Assembly (NCBI RefSeq): GCF_002797715.1
Contig: NZ_PGFF01000001.1
Location: 3,061,304-3,125,303, forward strand
Reading direction: 5' to 3'
Length of the DNA stretch: 64,000 bases
DNA from: Diaminobutyricimonas aerilata
GTDB taxonomy: Bacteria; Actinomycetota; Actinomycetes; Actinomycetales; Microbacteriaceae
The translations under genes were made by a program, and so were the position numbers. Positions within the stretch are counted from its first letter, which is position 1, and the number at the start of each line of letters is the position of its first letter. The notes beneath the pieces were generated by a model. It saw nothing but the letters and a program-made list of their open reading frames with translations. It was not told the origin of the DNA and made no database searches. Below, in pieces: positions 6,034-51,685 of the stretch.

Positions 6034-7217
6034 CGCGGGTCTCCTTCCACCGGGATGTACCGGCTCTGTTCGGCGGCGCTGCGGTCGACGGCGTCGAGCA
6101 CGCGCTGCACCTGCGTCGCCTCGGCGAAGGTCGGATGCACGGTGCCGCCGTCGACCACGGCGCGCACGAAGTCCACCACCTGGTGGGAGAACAGGTGCTC
6201 ATAGCCGAGCCCGTGGCCGGCCGGCCACCAGGCGTCCGCGTACGGATGCTCGGGCTCGGTCACCTCGATGCGACGGAAGCCCTGCTCGCCGGCGGGCAGG
6301 GTCGCGTCGTAGAAGCGCAGCCCGTTCATGTCGGCGAAGTCGAACGAGATCGCGCCGCGGTCGCCGTTGATCTCGATCCGGTTCGAGTTGCGGTGCCCGG
6401 TCGCCATGCGGGTCGCCTCGAAGACGCCGAGAGCACCGTCGGCGAAGGTGGCCGTGAACGCGGCCGCGTCGTCCACGGTGACCTCCTGGCGGGGCGCGTC
6501 GGCGCTGCCGCGACCGCCCAGTCCCACGCGCTCGTCGAGGTGGGGACGGCTGGGAACGAAGGTGCGCAGCATCGCCGAGACCCCGGTGATGTCGGATCCG
6601 GTCAGCCACTGGGCGGTGTCGATGCTGTGCGCGCCGATGTCGCCGAGCGCCCCGGAGCCGGCTCGCGTGCGGTCGAGACGCCAGGTGAACGGGGCGTCGG
6701 GGTCGCTCAGCCAGTCCTGCAGGTACTGCGCGCGCACGTGGCGGACCTCGCCGACCCGCCCCTGCTCGATCAGACGCCGGGCGAGCGACAGCGCCGGGGT
6801 GCGACGGTAGCTGAAACCGCACATGCTCACGACGCCGCGGGTAGCCGCGCTCTCTGCTTCGGCGGCCATCCGTTCGGCGTCGGCCAGGTCGTTCGCGAGC
6901 GGCTTCTCGCACAGCACGTGCTTGCCGGCGGCGAGCGCCGCGAGGGCGATCTCGACGTGCGTGTCACCCGGGGTGCAGATGTCGACGATGTCGATGTCGT
7001 CGCGGGTGACCGCCGACCGCCAGTCGTCCGTCGACTCCGGGACCCCGAACGCGGCGGCCGCGGTGACGGCCCGGGACGCGTCGCTGCCCGCGAGCAGCGC
7101 GGCCTCGACGCCGCGCGGCAGGTCGAAGAAGCGTGGTGCGGTGCGCCAGGCGTGGGCGTGCATCCGCCCCATGAATCCGGTTCCGATGATGGCCACTCGC
7201 AACGGTGCTGTCGTCAT
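6030..7217 (-). CDS. Gfo/Idh/MocA family oxidoreductase (first of the trio)
   Basis: A 395-residue NAD(P)-dependent dehydrogenase. It starts MTTAPLRVAIIGTGFMGRMH (dinucleotide-binding GxGxxG) and carries the CEKPLAN motif with the catalytic lysine. The C-terminal half has DIGAHSIDTAQWL, the conserved histidine helix. The start at 7217 is supported by GAAGAGG just upstream. It shares little sequence with the third gene of the operon, so the two probably act on successive intermediates. A LacI-type regulator is transcribed away from it 91 bases upstream. Confidence 0.9.
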   Translation of the reverse strand: MTTAPLRVAIIGTGFMGRMHAHAWRTAPRFFDLPRGVEAALLAGSDASRAVTAAAAFGVPESTDDWRSAVTRDDIDIVDICTPGDTHVEIALAALAAGKHVLCEKPLANDLADAERMAAEAESAATRGVVSMCGFSYRRTPALSLARRLIEQGRVGEVRHVRAQYLQDWLSDPDAPFTWRLDRTRAGSGALGDIGAHSIDTAQWLTGSDITGVSAMLRTFVPSRPHLDERVGLGGRGSADAPRQEVTVDDAAAFTATFADGALGVFEATRMATGHRNSNRIEINGDRGAISFDFADMNGLRFYDATLPAGEQGFRRIEVTEPEHPYADAWWPAGHGLGYEHLFSHQVVDFVRAVVDGGTVHPTFAEATQVQRVLDAVDRSAAEQSRYIPVEGDPR

Positions 7218-7292
7218 CGACCTCTTCCCCTCCGCGTCGACGGGTGCTGAACGCATCAACGATGCCATCGCGACTCGCGATCCGACGGCGAG

Positions 7293-7300
7293 TTGCGCAA
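7293..7300. promoter_or_regulatory. candidate LacI-family operator TTGCGCAA
   Basis: A perfect 8-base palindrome, TTGCGCAA, lies nine bases before the LacI-type gene and between it and the divergent dehydrogenase operon. LacI regulators bind palindromes with a central CG, so this is the likely site for autoregulation and operon control. Confidence 0.5.
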
Positions 7301-7308
7301 AATGGAGG

Positions 7309-8334
7309 ATGCCCGTCGCCGCTCGTTCCACCCTCGCCCTCGTCGCGCAGACCGCCGGGGTGAGCGTGTCGACGGCGTCGCGCGCGCTGCGCGGACTGGG
7401 CGAGATGTCGGCCGAGACCCGCGCCCGCGTGCTGCGGACCGCCGAAGGCCTCGGCTACCCGGCGGCCGGTCGGCGGCTCGGCCGCCCACGCCGCAGCGCT
7501 TCGCTCAGCATCGACCTCGTGCTCGGTAGCTACCACGACCCGTACACCGAGGAGGTGACCGCCGGTGCTCGCACGGCGGCCACCGCGCTCGGCTACGACC
7601 TCGTGCTCACCGCGGAACGCGACGATCCCGACGACGACTGGCCGGTGCGGGTGCGGGCGCGCGGCACGGCCGGTGTCATCCTCGGCGTGATCGTGCCGAC
7701 GAGCACCCAGCTGGCCGTGATGCGCGCGGCGGGCATCCCCGTCGTGCTGCTGGATCCGCCCTCCGAACGGTTGCCAGAGCTGCCGAGTGTGCGCACGACC
7801 GACCGGGCGGGCGGCGCGGCCGCGGCCCGGCACCTCGTCGAACGCGGCGCCCGGCGCTTCATCGTGATCGGCGGCACGCCGTCGTACCGCTACGGCCGCG
7901 CTCGCGTCGACGGCTTCACGACGGCCCTCGCCGAGGCGCTCCCCGGCGCGCCGGTCGTGCACACGAGCGCGCAGTGGGGAGCCGCGGATGCCCGACGCGC
8001 CTGCGCCGGTGCTCTTGCGGAACTCGACGGCGACGGCCCGATCGGGCTGTTCGCGTGCTCGGACGAGATGGCGGCCGGCGCCTATCGGGCGATCGCCGCC
8101 GCGGGACTGTCGGTTCCCCGCGATGTGCTCGTCGTCGGTTTCGACGACGTGCGCGCGGCACGCTGGCTGCATCCGCCGCTGACGACGATCCGGCAGCCGA
8201 TCCGCGAGATGGCCGCCGCTGCGGTGCATGCCCTCGCGTCGACCGCAGCCGGAACGCCGCCCCCGAGCACGCCGGTCGAGCTGCCGACGGAGCTCATCGT
8301 GCGGGGCTCGACCCGGCTCGATCGGGGCGACTGA
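7309..8334 (+). CDS. LacI family transcriptional regulator
   Basis: Sugar-responsive DNA-binding regulator of 341 residues. The N-terminal helix-turn-helix reads TLALVAQTAGVSVSTASRAL, followed by a hinge (GLGYPAAGRRL) and a periplasmic-binding-protein-like effector domain (IDLVLGSYHDPYTEE to the C-terminus, with VVGFDDVRAARWL and PPLTTIRQP). The ATG at 7309 gives the usual N-terminus for the family; GGAGG abuts it directly, so the exact start is somewhat uncertain. It is divergent from the dehydrogenase/ThuA operon and probably represses it through the TTGCGCAA site. Confidence 0.9.
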   Translation: MPVAARSTLALVAQTAGVSVSTASRALRGLGEMSAETRARVLRTAEGLGYPAAGRRLGRPRRSASLSIDLVLGSYHDPYTEEVTAGARTAATALGYDLVLTAERDDPDDDWPVRVRARGTAGVILGVIVPTSTQLAVMRAAGIPVVLLDPPSERLPELPSVRTTDRAGGAAAARHLVERGARRFIVIGGTPSYRYGRARVDGFTTALAEALPGAPVVHTSAQWGAADARRACAGALAELDGDGPIGLFACSDEMAAGAYRAIAAAGLSVPRDVLVVGFDDVRAARWLHPPLTTIRQPIREMAAAAVHALASTAAGTPPPSTPVELPTELIVRGSTRLDRGD

Positions 8335-9067: not shown

Positions 9068-9820
9068 ATGCGGATCGCAGTCGCCGGAGGAACCGGCACC
9101 GTCGGACGACACCTGGTCGCGGCGGCGCAGGCACGGGGACACGAGGTGACCGTGCTGTCACGCAGCTCGGGGGTGGACGTGCTGGCGGGCACGAACCTCG
9201 ACCCGGCGCTCGCGGACGTGCCGGTGGTCATCGATGTGCTGAACCTCACGTCGCTGTCGAAGCGCAAGTCCGTCGCGTTCTTCGAGCGCGCGACGCAGAA
9301 CCTCCTCCGCGCCGAGGCGCGCGCGGGCACCGCGCACCACGTCGCCTTGTCCATCGTCGGGATCGACCGGATCGACGCGTCGTACTACGCCGGCAAGCTC
9401 GCCCAGGAGCGACTCGTCAGCGCCTCGGAGGTGCCGCACACCATCGCCCGCGCGGGACAGTTCCACGAGTTCGCCGAGCAGGTCGTCGGACAGGCGACCT
9501 TCGGCGGCGTGTCGATGGTGCCGCGGCTGCTGGGGCGGCCCGTCGCCGCGAGCGAGGTCGCCGAGCACCTGGTCTCGATCGCCGAAGGGGCCCCACTCGG
9601 CCGCGCATCCGATCTCGTCGGCCCGCGGAACGAGACGCTCGCCGACATGGTGCGCCGCATGTACGCGCACGACGGCATCCGGCGCCGGGTGCTCGAGGCG
9701 CGCCTGCCGGGACGGTATGGCCGAGGCCTCGCCTCGGGCGACCTGCGCGGCTCCGGATCGGCGACCGTAGCGAAGGTCGGCTTCGACGAATGGCTCTCGT
9801 CCGGGCATCGACGCCGGTGA
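9068..9820 (+). CDS. NmrA-like SDR family NAD(P)-binding oxidoreductase
   Basis: A 250-residue Rossmann-fold protein. The NAD(P)-binding motif is AVAGGTGTVGRHL, and the YYAGKLAQE segment carries the YxxxK-like pair. The second half (GPRNETLADMVRRM) resembles atypical SDRs that act on quinones or nucleoside-sugar-like compounds. The start is fixed by GAGGAG eight bases upstream. A well-formed terminator follows. Its promoter resembles those of ECF41 sigma factors, whose usual targets are carboxymuconolactone decarboxylases, oxidoreductases and epimerases. Substrate unknown. Confidence 0.85.
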   Translation: MRIAVAGGTGTVGRHLVAAAQARGHEVTVLSRSSGVDVLAGTNLDPALADVPVVIDVLNLTSLSKRKSVAFFERATQNLLRAEARAGTAHHVALSIVGIDRIDASYYAGKLAQERLVSASEVPHTIARAGQFHEFAEQVVGQATFGGVSMVPRLLGRPVAASEVAEHLVSIAEGAPLGRASDLVGPRNETLADMVRRMYAHDGIRRRVLEARLPGRYGRGLASGDLRGSGSATVAKVGFDEWLSSGHRRR

Positions 9821-9842
9821 ACTTCCGCCACCGCGGAACGAG

Positions 9843-9872
9843 AAAGCCCCGGTCCCTCAGGACCGGGGCTTT
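9843..9872. terminator. bidirectional rho-independent terminator
   Basis: A perfect 13-base stem, AAAGCCCCGGTCC with its complement, and a four-base loop, flanked by A and T runs. It serves both the rightward SDR gene and the leftward tRNA-Ser. Confidence 0.85.
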
Positions 9873-9877
9873 CCCCG

Positions 9878-9967
9878 TGGCGGTGACGGTGGGATTTGAA
9901 CCCACGGTGGGTGTAAGCCCACACAACTTTTCGAGAGTTGCACCTTCGGCCGCTCGGACACGTCACC
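9878..9967 (-). tRNA. tRNA-Ser (anticodon CGA)
   Basis: Read leftward from 9967: acceptor strand GGTGACG, the class II D-arm GTCCGAGCGGCC, anticodon stem GCAACT with loop CTCGAAA (anticodon CGA, reading UCG codons), a long variable arm (GTGGGCTTACACCCAC), T-arm GTGGGTTCAAATCCCAC and acceptor CGTCACC. Discriminator G as expected for serine, and the CCA end is encoded. A TAAGCT box lies seven bases upstream. Total 90 nt. Confidence 0.95.
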
Positions 9968-10025
9968 GCCGAAGAGCTTAGTACATTCACGGCGAACGCC
10001 CGATCCTCCCGGTTATCGTGCGCTG

Positions 10026-10847
10026 ATGCCTTGGTTCCTCGTCGCAATCGTCGTCGCCCTCGGGGGCGGGATCGCCGGGTGGGTGCGGTGGCTCGTGCGC
10101 CGCCGCGGCGTCTGGTTCATCCGCCTCAACGACGCGATCCCCGTGAACGCGCACTACTGGCGCGAGCGGATGGCCCGGCACGGCGAGTACCTGTACGTGG
10201 CGATCGGCGATTCCGCCGCGCAAGGCATCGGGGCGAGCCGACCCGGCCGCAGTTACGTCGGCATGATCGCCCGGCACGTCCGCACCGTCTCGCCCGCGAA
10301 GTGGCGGGTGGCCAACCTGTCCGTCTCCGGCGCCACCGTCTCGCTCGCGCTGAAGAACCAGCTGCCCAAGCTCCGCAAGCTCGAGCCGGACCTGTGCACG
10401 GTCGCGATCGGCGCCAACGACATCGCCGCCTTCGACCCGGAGCGGTTCGAGCGCGACCTGCGCGCCCTGTACTCCGCCCTGCCGTCGCACACGATCGTCG
10501 CCGACGTGCCGTGCTTCTACTTCAACCCGCGCGAACGGATCGTGCGGCAGGCGAACGAGATCCTCCGCCGCGTCGCGGGCGAGTTCGGACTCGAGGTCGT
10601 GCCGCTGCACGAACTCACCCGGCGGCAGGGCGCCCGCGGCATCGTCACGCAGTTCGCGGGCGACCTGTTCCACCCGAACGATCGCGGCTACGCAGTGTGG
10701 GCCCGCGCGTTCGAACCGGCGGTGGATGCGCGACTGCGGTCGACCGGACTGGGCGCCGGTGCCCTCGACGCGGACGACCCGCGCTCGACGGTCGGCGATC
10801 CCCTTCCGGTGAGCGCGCCGGAGGCCGACGCTCCGCGCGGTTCCTAG
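10026..10847 (+). CDS. SGNH/GDSL-type esterase or hydrolase, membrane-anchored
   Basis: A 273-residue hydrolase with one N-terminal membrane helix (residues 3-22) followed by basic residues. The catalytic blocks are complete: S63 in AIGDSAAQG, an oxyanion Gly in block II, N132 in GANDI, and D215/H218 in DLFHPNDRG. Such enzymes de-esterify lipids or deacetylate sugars; the natural substrate cannot be read here. Start: TATCGT lies exactly six bases before the ATG, with no ribosome site, so a leaderless transcript is likely. A tail of about 40 residues after the fold looks disordered. Confidence 0.88.
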   Translation: MPWFLVAIVVALGGGIAGWVRWLVRRRGVWFIRLNDAIPVNAHYWRERMARHGEYLYVAIGDSAAQGIGASRPGRSYVGMIARHVRTVSPAKWRVANLSVSGATVSLALKNQLPKLRKLEPDLCTVAIGANDIAAFDPERFERDLRALYSALPSHTIVADVPCFYFNPRERIVRQANEILRRVAGEFGLEVVPLHELTRRQGARGIVTQFAGDLFHPNDRGYAVWARAFEPAVDARLRSTGLGAGALDADDPRSTVGDPLPVSAPEADAPRGS

Positions 10848-48643: not shown

Positions 48644-48997
48644 TCAGCCCGCGGCTTCGACGACCGGCTCCGGATTCCAGCGGTGTGCCCATTGGGTGAG
48701 CGGCTGCAGCGACTCGAGCAGCTCGGCGCCGCTCTCGGTGAGTCCGTAGCGCACCTGCACGGGGGTCGTCGGGATGATGGTGCGCTCGACGAGGCCGTCG
48801 GCCGCGAGCGTCTTGAGTCGCACGGCGAGCATGCGGTCGGAGATGCCGGCGACGTTGGCCCGCACGTCCGAGAAGCGGGTCGCACCGCGGGCGAGAGCGA
48901 GCAGGATCGCGCCGCTCCAGCGCTGCCCGACGAGGTCGACGGCGGAGAGGAAGTGACGGCACTGCTCGTCATCGATCTGCTGATACGCGGGAATCAC
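48644..48997 (-). CDS. HxlR family winged-helix regulator
   Basis: 117 residues. HxlR pattern: CRHFLSAVDLVGQRWSGAILLAL, then the recognition region FSDVRANVAGISDRMLAVRLKTL and wing VQVRYGLTESGAEL. An N-terminal cysteine (Cys13) could be a redox or aldehyde sensor as in related HxlR proteins. The GTG start lies inside its predicted operator. Divergent from the oxidase fusion, which it probably controls. Confidence 0.9.
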   Translation of the reverse strand: MIPAYQQIDDEQCRHFLSAVDLVGQRWSGAILLALARGATRFSDVRANVAGISDRMLAVRLKTLAADGLVERTIIPTTPVQVRYGLTESGAELLESLQPLTQWAHRWNPEPVVEAAG

Positions 48998-49013
48998 TTA
49001 CCTAGAGTAAGTG
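48995..49013. promoter_or_regulatory. HxlR operator palindrome
   Basis: CACTTAC-CTAGA-GTAAGTG: perfect seven-base arms and five-base spacer. It covers the hxlR start codon and lies 49 bases before the divergent gene. Confidence 0.75.
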
Positions 49014-49061
49014 ACTTCCCTGACGTTTGCCAAGGGGTGCGCGTCGCCCGAGGCTGGATGC

Positions 49062-51293
49062 ATGCCCGACTACGGCCATCCGCTTCGCTTCGGAACCTTC
49101 ATCACGCCCGCCGCCGCCCGCCCCGAGAACGTCGTCGCGCTCGCCCGGCACACCGAGCGGGTCGGCCTCGATCTCGTCACCTTCCAGGACCACCCGTACC
49201 AGCCGTCGTTCCTCGACACCCTCACCCTGCTCACCTGGGTCGCGGCGCAGACGGAGCGCGTGCACGTCTCCGCGAACGTGCACAGCCTGCCGCTGCGACC
49301 GCCCGCGGTGCTCGCCAAGGCGGCCGCGAGCGTCGACCTGCTCTCGGGCGGACGCTTCGAGCTCGGCCTCGGCGCCGGCGCCTTCTGGGACGCCATCGAG
49401 GGCATGGGCGCGCAGCGGCTCACCACCGGGCAGGCGGTGACCGCACTGTCGGAGGCGATCGACGTCATCCGGGCGTTGTGGGCGACGGATGAGCGGACAC
49501 CGTTGCGCATGGAGGGCACCTACTACCGGTTGCGCGGCGCCAAGCGCGGGCCGGCGCCGTCGACGCGCATCCCGATCGCGCTCGGCGCGTACAAGCCGCG
49601 GATGCTGCGGCTGGTCGGCGAGAAGGCGGACGGCTGGCTGCCCTCGCAGGCGTACCTCGGCGAGGGCGGGCTGCAGGCGGGCAACGCCGCGATCGACGCC
49701 GCCGCCGAGGACGCCGGTCGCGATCCGCGCGAGGTGCGACGGATGCTGAACATCGCGCCCCCGGGCGGGGACGTCGACTCGTGGGTGGCCGAGCTGGTGC
49801 GCATGGCGGTGGACGACGGGGTCGGCACGTTCATCCTCGCCGCCGACGATCCGCGCACCATCCAGCTGTTCGGCGAGGAGGTCGCTCCGGCCGTGCGCGA
49901 GGCCGTCGCCGCGGAACGCCGCGAGCTCGGAACGACGACCGGGACGGTTCGCCCCCGCGCCGTGCTCGCGAAGCGCCGTGAGGGTATCGACTACGACGAC
50001 GTGCCCGCCGATGTCGAGGCGATCGAGCCCGGCGATCCGAGCTTCGGATCGGTGCGCTCCAACTACCTGCGCGGCGGGAACCCCGGCCTCGTGCTGCGCC
50101 CGGCCGACGTCGACGGCGTCGCCCGCTCGCTCGCCTTCGCGCGACGACAGCCGGTGCCGCTCGGCATCCGCTCGGGCGGTCATGGCGTCTCCGGTCGCTC
50201 GACCAACGACGGCGGCATCGTGCTCGATCTGGGCCGTCTCGACGGCATCGAGGTGCTCGACGAGGCGACCCGCCGCATCCGGGTGGGCGCCGGCGCCCGG
50301 TGGGGCGACGTGGCCGCGGCGCTCGACGACTACGGGTGGGCCCTGAGTTCGGGCGACTACGGCGGCGTCGGCGTGGGCGGCCTCGCCACCACCGGCGGCA
50401 TCGGCTGGCTCGCCCGCGAGCACGGGCTCACGATCGACCACCTCCGCGCGGTCGAGGTCGTGCTCGCCGACGGCCGCATCGTGCGCGCCTCGCCCACCGA
50501 GGAGCCCGAGCTGTTCTGGGGGATGCGCGGTGCCGGCGGCAACTTCGGCATCGCGACCGCCTTCGAGTTCGAGGTCGACGAGGTCGGTGCGGTCGGCTGG
50601 GTGCAGCTCGCCCATGACGCCACCGACCTGGCGCGCTTCCTGCAGGCCTGGAGCGCGATCGTGGAGTCGTCGCCGCGCGACCTGACGGCCAACCTCATCG
50701 TCGGCCGTTCGAGCGGTCGGATCATCGCTCAGACGATGGCCCTCGTCGACTCCGCCGAGGCCGATGTCATCCTCGCCCGGGTTCAACCCCTCGCCGACAT
50801 CGCGCCGCTTCTCGACTCATCCGCCCAGCTCACCTCGTACGCCGCCGTCATGGGCAATGCCTCCGGCGAACCGCACCAGGGCCGTGGCGAGCCGGTCGCG
50901 CGCTCGGTGCTCGTGGAGGCGATCACGCCGCAGGTCGCCGAGGTGGTGCAGCGCCTCGTCGAGTCGGGCGACTCGCACTTCTTCCAGGTGCGCTCCGTCG
51001 GCGGGGCGGTGTCGGACGTCGCCCCGGACGCGACGGCGTACGGGCAGCGCGGCGCGAGCTTCTCCCTCGTGGCGATGGGCTCGGACGACACCCGCCTCGA
51101 CCGGCACTGGACCCGGATGCGCGAACTCGGCTCCGGCCTGTACCTCTCGTTCGAGACGTCGCAGGATCCGGCGCTGCTCGAGCAGGCGTTCGGCGCGGAG
51201 AACCTCGTGCGGCTGCGCGAGCTCAAACGGCGCTACGACCCGGAGAACGTGTTCGGCGGCAACTTCCCGATCCCACCCGCACTCGAGGCGTGA
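49062..51293 (+). CDS. fusion of luciferase-like monooxygenase and BBE-type FAD-linked oxidase
   Basis: 743 residues in one frame. Residues about 5-285: LLM-fold flavin monooxygenase (PLRFGTFITPAAARPENVV, GGRFELGLGAG, EKADGWLPSQ). Residues about 330-743: FAD_binding_4 domain with LGIRSGGHGVSGRS, where H374 should bind FAD covalently, and a C-terminal BBE tail (RYDPENVFGGNFPIPP). The second covalent cysteine of true bicovalent BBE enzymes is not apparent; the region reads SSGDYGGVGVGGLA. ATG at 49062 after GAGG. Substrate unknown. Controlled by the divergent HxlR gene. Confidence 0.88.
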   Translation: MPDYGHPLRFGTFITPAAARPENVVALARHTERVGLDLVTFQDHPYQPSFLDTLTLLTWVAAQTERVHVSANVHSLPLRPPAVLAKAAASVDLLSGGRFELGLGAGAFWDAIEGMGAQRLTTGQAVTALSEAIDVIRALWATDERTPLRMEGTYYRLRGAKRGPAPSTRIPIALGAYKPRMLRLVGEKADGWLPSQAYLGEGGLQAGNAAIDAAAEDAGRDPREVRRMLNIAPPGGDVDSWVAELVRMAVDDGVGTFILAADDPRTIQLFGEEVAPAVREAVAAERRELGTTTGTVRPRAVLAKRREGIDYDDVPADVEAIEPGDPSFGSVRSNYLRGGNPGLVLRPADVDGVARSLAFARRQPVPLGIRSGGHGVSGRSTNDGGIVLDLGRLDGIEVLDEATRRIRVGAGARWGDVAAALDDYGWALSSGDYGGVGVGGLATTGGIGWLAREHGLTIDHLRAVEVVLADGRIVRASPTEEPELFWGMRGAGGNFGIATAFEFEVDEVGAVGWVQLAHDATDLARFLQAWSAIVESSPRDLTANLIVGRSSGRIIAQTMALVDSAEADVILARVQPLADIAPLLDSSAQLTSYAAVMGNASGEPHQGRGEPVARSVLVEAITPQVAEVVQRLVESGDSHFFQVRSVGGAVSDVAPDATAYGQRGASFSLVAMGSDDTRLDRHWTRMRELGSGLYLSFETSQDPALLEQAFGAENLVRLRELKRRYDPENVFGGNFPIPPALEA

Positions 51294-51300
51294 CCCGCTT

Positions 51301-51343
51301 GTTAGTACGATGAAAGTCGTAGTACGGTTCTCGTCGTACTAAC
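51301..51343. promoter_or_regulatory. inverted-repeat operator before the ArsR gene
   Basis: GTTAGTACGA (51301-51310) and TCGTACTAAC (51334-51343) are exact complements; GTAGTACGG between them looks like a third half-site. Probable autoregulatory site overlapping the promoter. Confidence 0.65.
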
Positions 51344-51358
51344 GACCTGGGAGCGACC

Positions 51359-51685
51359 GTGCGCACGTTCGAGCATCCGCACGTCGACGATCTGACGATC
51401 GGCGCCGTGCTGGCCGCGCTCGCCGATCCGTATCGGCGGCAGGTGGTGCGACAGCTGGCCGACGAGGCCGATGAGCTCACCTGCAGTCAATTCGACCTCG
51501 CGGTGGGCAAGTCGACGCGAACCCATCACTTCCGGGTGCTGCGTGAGGCAGGCATCATCCGGCAGCACTACGAGGGCACGACGATCCACAACGCGTTGCG
51601 CGCCGACGACGTGGGATCCCGGTTCCCTGGCCTGCTCGACTCGGTCATCGAGGCCGAACGCGCCGCGCTCGCCTCGACCCGCTGA
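51359..51685 (+). CDS. ArsR-type winged-helix regulator
   Basis: 108 residues. ALADPYRRQVVRQLADEADELTC is the usual entry of ArsR-like helix-turn-helix proteins, followed by GKSTRTHHFRVLREAGIIRQ (recognition helix) and wing YEGTTIHNAL. No metal-binding cysteine pair typical of metal sensors is present; only Cys42. GTG start, 15 bases after the operator. The epimerase gene follows 63 bases later, its likely target. Confidence 0.87.
   Translation: MRTFEHPHVDDLTIGAVLAALADPYRRQVVRQLADEADELTCSQFDLAVGKSTRTHHFRVLREAGIIRQHYEGTTIHNALRADDVGSRFPGLLDSVIEAERAALASTR

Follow-up and report, generated by a model that had tools for sequence, protein, structure and literature searches.

The window, a stretch of 64,000 nucleotides from Diaminobutyricimonas aerilata, contains a gene whose single product joins a luciferase-like (LLM) barrel to a BBE-type FAD oxidase, with a divergent HxlR regulator and a palindrome just upstream (Table 1). 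Its reading frame opens with the ATG at 49062, which is the likely start because the resulting N terminus, MPDYG, is common to many homologues, and runs through 743 codons without internal stops to the stop codon at 51291-51293.

Table 1. Positions of the fusion gene, its parts and its regulatory elements in the window, with the basis of each assignment.
Feature	Position	Strand	Basis
Divergent HxlR (DUF24/MarR-like) regulator, 117 aa, N-terminal Cys	48644..48997	-	PF01638, E 2.2e-25
Probable HxlR operator: palindrome 48995-49013 and third half-site CTTCC 49015-49019	48995..49019	.	Conservation, spacing
Fusion gene, LLM and BBE-type FAD oxidase, 743 aa	49062..51293	+	Pfam profiles, AlphaFold model; frame open in 132 distinct loci
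LLM (luciferase-like) TIM-barrel half, residues 1-290	49062..49931	+	Pfam match 14-233
Inter-domain linker, residues 291-318	49932..50015	+	R305, Y311, P315 conserved; dN/dS 0.28
BBE/VAO-type FAD oxidase half, residues 319-743, EncM-like	50016..51290	+	Pfam, alignment, fold comparison
His374, predicted 8-alpha covalent FAD anchor	50181..50183	+	Aligns with EncM His78; invariant in 31 aligned fusions
Oxygen-reactivity motif G431-D-Y433-G-G-V436	50352..50369	+	EncM alignment; Gly/Val gate placed by motif spacing

The initial annotation had read two complete flavin-type folds in one frame, free of stops and frameshifts, and the domain search and whole-protein structure prediction it proposed bear this out, each half matching its own family. 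Bac_luciferase (PF00296) covers residues 14-233 (E 1.3e-45; 156.5 bits against a curated score of 27.9), FAD_binding_4 (PF01565) residues 342-477 (E 1.6e-32) and BBE (PF08031) residues 707-737 (E 7.7e-7), the last two over their gathering scores. In the AlphaFold model (pLDDT 87.1, pTM 0.84) the LLM half has eight barrel strands alternating with helices, a (beta/alpha)8 arrangement, and the BBE-type domain follows after a linker at about 291-318; the low-confidence stretches 374-378 and 433-445 lie around the FAD site. Each of the linker residues R305, Y311 and P315 is missing from no more than one of 53 solo fusions, that is, fusions with no neighbouring LLM gene. Relative to an in-frame orthologue with 81% identity to the window protein (genome G023), dN/dS is 0.18 for the LLM half, 0.28 for the linker and 0.19 for the BBE half. 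This orthologue and the many further in-frame fusions exclude a sequencing or annotation artefact.

The proposed count of genomes keeping the fusion shows it to be widespread. At a cut of E 1e-60, an open fused frame occurs in 60 of the 299 genomes of the family sample, a figure that takes in one genome with an eroded barrel (G262) and leaves out one in which the fusion is broken across frames (G010, 86% complete and 5% contaminated). A phylum sample overlapping with it has the fusion in 10 of 396 genomes, and the best 80 loci of a scan of named genomes, a lower bound, all carry the fused frame. Among the matches listed, hosts are Microbacteriaceae, Cellulomonas, Promicromonosporaceae, Jiangella, Micromonosporaceae, Streptosporangiaceae, Frankia, Nakamurella, other Actinomycetota and Chloroflexota metagenome-assembled genomes. 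Merging loci with identical BBE stretches reduced 149 loci to 132 distinct fusions from Actinomycetota and Chloroflexota, without the broken G010 copy. One such identity, exact to the letter, is between L093 (genome G120) of the family sample and the named locus L189 of Amnibacterium kyonggiense, in line with Microbacteriaceae as the family sampled. A plasmid search returned three matching records, one with the whole fusion and no annotated feature beneath it. The architecture is thus conserved and, as far as the open-access literature shows, undescribed: among open-access papers we found no account of an LLM and BBE fusion.

In a quick BBE tree made without bootstrap, a branch with support 100 splits the 132 fusions from the two nearest standalone BBE rows; a smaller tree of the same kind with ten standalone rows gives the same split with support of only 69. 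A single origin of the fusion is therefore likely rather than proven. Separate genes in close relatives, which the initial annotation had named as the sign of a fusion created by sequencing error, were seen once among the loci examined, in a genome (G060) that also has an intact fusion; the second locus (L107:3600-5875), a two-gene version occurring in nature, encodes the LLM and BBE proteins in different frames, the LLM stop overlapping a GTG start (GTGA) with GGAGAG ahead of it as a possible ribosome site. The split LLM gene groups with a fused relative (L099) at 100/100 and the split BBE gene also groups with it, so the pair is probably a later fission of a fusion; the error reading itself fails on the in-frame G023 orthologue.

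The catalytic face of the LLM half includes F13, Q42-D43-H44-P45-Y46-Q47, N72, R79, G104, G106, F108, G175, P194 and N230. Its best subfamily models, both of F420-LLM families, are TIGR03619 (124.1 bits, below the cut-off of 166.9) and TIGR03560 (110.1 bits, below 231.4), no subfamily model reaching its cut-off, and its nearest solved chains are mostly the F420-dependent enzymes Mer, FGD, hydroxymycolic acid dehydrogenase and Adf. The general statement of the initial annotation that LLM enzymes need reduced flavin is therefore too narrow. The match to these enzymes spans the barrel, to which the window protein adds a second enzyme. In the alignment D43-H44 falls on the Asp-His pair that Mer and FGD have, whereas Ala107 falls on the active-site Glu of FGD (Glu109 in M. 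tuberculosis). FMN-type LLM enzymes (RutA and alkanal monooxygenase chains) also match this half.

The genome of D. aerilata has both CofD and CofE, the latter away from CofD. Near CofD (locus L202, genome positions 1303000-1317500; CofD at 6877-7857 on the minus strand) are genes of an F420-0 ABC transporter, whose binding protein (9652-10785, minus strand) scores over the cut-off and whose ATPase falls just under it. The search for FO synthase used the CofH model alone; CofH had no match in 15 of the 21 fusion genomes tried, that of D. aerilata among them, and CofE was found in 20 of the 21. From CofD beside an F420-0 transporter and the missing CofH match we read a probable salvage of F420 precursor in this organism. 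F420 is thus available in the host, which does not by itself prove that the LLM half uses it. Within the family sample, CofD is present in 51 of the 60 fusion genomes versus 80 of the 239 others, a comparison confounded by kinship; the nine fusion genomes lacking CofD all have CofE and show no CofH match. On co-occurrence, a strict F420 dependence is no more than a possibility. Judged by its relatives, the LLM half probably uses F420, and FMN is possible.

The FMN alternative has its own form, a two-component arrangement in which a free flavin reductase would supply FMNH2 to the LLM half, acting as a monooxygenase, and the product would go on to the BBE half. We regard it as rather unlikely: the FMN-type matches and the fusion genomes without CofD fit it, but F420 enzymes mostly outrank FMN enzymes among the matches, CofE is kept in all nine of those genomes, and no flavin reductase occurs among eight typed representatives of neighbour clusters, two of which have no Pfam match. 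More generally, a scan of neighbours at the 90 loci with longer flanks singled out no conserved pathway enzyme.

The relatives of the window protein differ in what stands next to them. An LLM gene on the same strand directly follows 18 of the 132 fusions and directly precedes six. Scoring used the 75 LLM-half positions with at least 97% invariance in the 107 solo fusions, the only set from which they were chosen: 26 lie on the catalytic face, taken as the loops that lead from strand to helix in the window model, and 49 elsewhere. Scores are for 131 of the 132 loci; L193, whose fused barrel keeps 23 of 26 face residues, was left out because its upstream LLM gene lies in two frames. None of the 107 solo fusions lacks more than one of the 26 face residues. 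With a barrel called eroded when less than 0.8 of the face is kept, counted only among fusions with a downstream partner, 14 of the 18 are eroded, with 3-17 of 26 face residues left; the other four (L129, L145, L165 and L198) keep 22-26. The six fusions with an upstream partner keep 20-26, the lowest of them (L007, 20/26) also falling below the erosion threshold.

The losses concentrate on the catalytic face. Pooled over the 14 eroded fusions, 98 of 364 face residues are kept versus 531 of 686 other residues, and 20 of the 26 face positions are lost in most eroded fusions versus 7 of the 49 others (Fisher p 1e-7, positions treated as independent). Thirteen of the 14 keep most of the other invariant positions; the exception and extreme is L106, in which the barrel is nearly gone and 16 of 49 other positions remain. 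The BBE half of the eroded fusions retains 81-85 of 85 invariant columns, and all 24 partner LLM genes keep 24-26 face residues. Consequently the best LLM site at a locus, fused or adjacent, scores 26 in 117 loci, 25 in 13 and 24 in one. The eroded half thus appears to be a scaffold whose site lies in the gene next door. The pattern recalls LuxA/LuxB, a pair of homologous barrels in which a single barrel carries the active site (PMC8508739): at the level of genes, the partner corresponds to the barrel with the site and the eroded fusion to the barrel without it. Unlike in LuxA/LuxB, the inactive barrel of the eroded fusions carries an FAD oxidase. Such a pair of active and inactive barrels is found in 14 of the 18 loci with a downstream partner and not in the window, where the fusion is solo with its own site intact and no close LLM gene adjoining; none of the other LLM matches in the same genome exceeds about 35% identity across the LLM half.

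Related loci do not count as independent, and anything from one to three origins of erosion is compatible with the trees. The BBE tree requires three changes for erosion and four for the downstream partner, and places the intact-barrel fusions L129 and L145 near the eroded L057-L060, and L165 near L011, L106 and L197. In LLM trees the eroded barrels form one clade (100/99 in one tree, 91 in the other), in which long branches may attract each other; each tree holds 13 eroded rows, the first made without L106 and L197 and the second without L106. The downstream partner LLM genes are a lineage of their own and not recent copies of the fused half, so coupling might reflect co-inheritance; an independent-contrast test of partner gene against erosion offers only 2-4 pairs and has no power.

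These data bear on whether the two halves work together at all. Each half might do its own chemistry, the tether serving only to fix stoichiometry and co-expression, with no intermediate passed on. The overlapping separate genes of the G060 split pair agree with this, as do LLM genes of the same family without an adjacent fusion (34 rows, one of them the split pair, with 20-26 of 26 face residues). Against it, the split was seen once among loci examined non-systematically, compared with 132 fusions; the linker is conserved; and eroded barrels stay attached to the oxidase, one of them (L098) still being modelled with eight barrel strands, from an alignment that also held intact fusions. We regard such independence as rather unlikely. 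Coupling finds its strongest support in evolution: at 131 of 131 loci a near-intact LLM site is present, whether in the fusion itself or in the next gene. The channelling of substrate or peroxide between two flavin sites that the initial annotation raised is a conjecture. From the LLM site present at every scored locus, and from the retention of most of the barrel everywhere but in L106, we infer that LLM and BBE form one unit, in which the LLM reaction would be needed with the BBE reaction and the barrel would dock or dimerise by analogy with LuxA/LuxB. The loss of most of the barrel in L106 speaks against an essential docking role there.

The BBE half, compared with the PDB over residues 306-742, has the Streptomyces FAD oxygenase EncM, a member of the BBE/VAO family, as its best match in both sequence and fold (28% identity over 427 residues, Z 43.9), with the mitomycin radical oxidase McrA (29%, Z 41.5) and 6-hydroxy-D-nicotine oxidase (6-HDNO; 23%, Z 38.8) among the other close matches. 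EncM has no LLM barrel, and McrA and 6-HDNO are likewise standalone, not fused. About 54 kb from the fusion, the genome also encodes a BBE oxidase that stands alone (L118:3567-4796; genome positions 3166960-3168198) and, at 44% identity to the fused BBE half, offers a possible single-domain comparison. The covalent-FAD oxidase features that the initial annotation expected of this half are recovered by alignment. EncM His78, the counterpart of His374, is the flavin-linking residue according to PMC7662398, and the gate residues of oxidase-type enzymes are Gly and Val according to PMC4898691. Both Gly431 and Val436 are invariant in the 31 aligned fusions.

A second, 6-S-Cys link is typical of BBE-like enzymes and not universal. 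By motif spacing its position is occupied by Tyr433, with no Cys, so the FAD should be monocovalent, as in EncM, which also has a single His anchor and no 6-S-Cys link; monocovalent BBE-like members are described in PMC11375781. The EncM-type O2 pocket of Thr139 and His138 is absent, these residues aligning with Val436 and Gly435, and a Val in place of Thr139 indicates the oxidase type. Taken together, the Gly/Val gate, the Tyr at the Cys position and the Val for Thr139 lead us to predict a monocovalent FAD oxidase and not an N5-oxide oxygenase. That the BBE half forms a flavin-N5-oxide with the LLM half supplying electrons or substrate, as its closeness to EncM might suggest, is very unlikely in view of the substituted pocket, the invariance of Val436 and the oxidase activity that PMC7662398 reports for EncM T139V.

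Upstream, both elements named in the initial annotation, the divergent HxlR gene and a perfect palindrome CACTTAC-N5-GTAAGTG, are present. The palindrome CACTTACCTAGAGTAAGTG (48995-49013) has 0 mismatches, and the 3.49 Mb single-contig genome has one site with its core (on both strands, as a palindrome); in shuffled sequence, allowing up to three mismatches, the mean is 0.30 matches, with at least one in 22 of 100 shuffles. It overlaps the start codon of HxlR, which suggests that HxlR is autoregulated. An HxlR gene is divergent from the fusion in 52 of 132 loci, with the N-terminal Cys in 51 of them. The corresponding intergenic regions (7,269 bases) contain CTTAC-N5-GTAAG exactly in 26 cases and within one mismatch in 45, with none within one mismatch in the other 372,321 bases of these loci. 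Three bases on, 40 of the 45 sites carry a third half-site that departs from CTTAC at no more than one base, giving the consensus CTTAC-N5-GTAAG-N3-CTTAC, and in 29 of the 45 the operator stands 50 bases from the first aligned LLM codon. The conserved site and its mostly fixed spacing argue for HxlR control through the palindrome, as had been proposed. According to PMC6943732, a Cys of this kind lets DUF24 regulators sense quinones, HOCl and diamide, and HxlR itself is tied to aldehydes. The inducible detoxification or catabolic role suggested for the enzyme is plausible.

Against a general HxlR control, no HxlR gene lies in the fetched flank at 75 of the 132 loci, an upper bound since many loci had only a 1.5 kb flank. 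Among the 90 loci with longer flanks, 57 are without HxlR and 33 with it. A divergent upstream gene of one cluster, the commonest neighbour cluster (22 of 90 loci), occurs in 22 of the 57 and 0 of the 33; the one representative scanned is a MarR-type gene. At these loci a gene probably of MarR type stands where HxlR would be, as if the regulator had been replaced. Divergent MarR-type genes of this kind are seen at L173:2889-3479 and L129:2917-3393, in other lineages, at the position where Microbacteriaceae often have HxlR.

On the 3' side of the fusion, reading by eye reveals a further inverted repeat, TTAGTACGA / TCGTACTAA (51302-51342), just upstream of an ArsR-type regulator (51359-51685) that is paired with an epimerase gene. 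It is likely to be the operator of this gene pair. The pair was found beside the fusion in 0 of 79 other loci (mostly with 1.5 kb flanks), nor was it found in loci L081-L120.

Our preferred reading, to which we give a probability of roughly 0.5, is a bifunctional enzyme in which an LLM barrel using F420 or FMN and a covalent-FAD oxidase act on linked substrates, the barrel doubling as a docking element and the gene being induced through HxlR. The N-terminal barrel, probably with F420, would carry out a hydride transfer or an oxygenation. The C-terminal half, holding FAD through His374, would oxidise a small organic substrate with O2 and release H2O2. The two sites would be linked through their substrates, the product of one feeding the other, and the barrel would serve as a dimer or docking platform. 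In most relatives and in the window protein, docking barrel and active site would be one and the same barrel; in lineages with a downstream LLM gene, the fused barrel would mostly be a non-catalytic docking subunit in a predicted heterodimer with the neighbour that carries the site, comparable to LuxA beside LuxB. The Cys-bearing HxlR, acting at its three-half-site operator, would sense an electrophile or aldehyde as the probable inducer of expression. More tentatively, the F420-barrel and covalent-FAD-oxidase family as a whole may obligately work as one particle, some lineages having split the catalytic LLM off in trans and kept the inactive barrel as a handle of the oxidase.

A luciferase-type barrel and a covalent-FAD-type oxidase are here paired in one conserved chain, and the probable operator provides a simple handle on the inducer and thereby on the substrate. 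If the family reading is true, the eroded members would be a natural pseudoenzyme-tethered oxidase, and the barrel would at first have been both catalyst and dimer platform. Most can be learned from the relatives with eroded barrels, as they make the coupling testable: with intact, eroding, eroded-plus-partner and split forms, the relatives constitute a natural separation-of-function series, through which the need for a dimer platform and the coupling of two redox chemistries become directly accessible to experiment.
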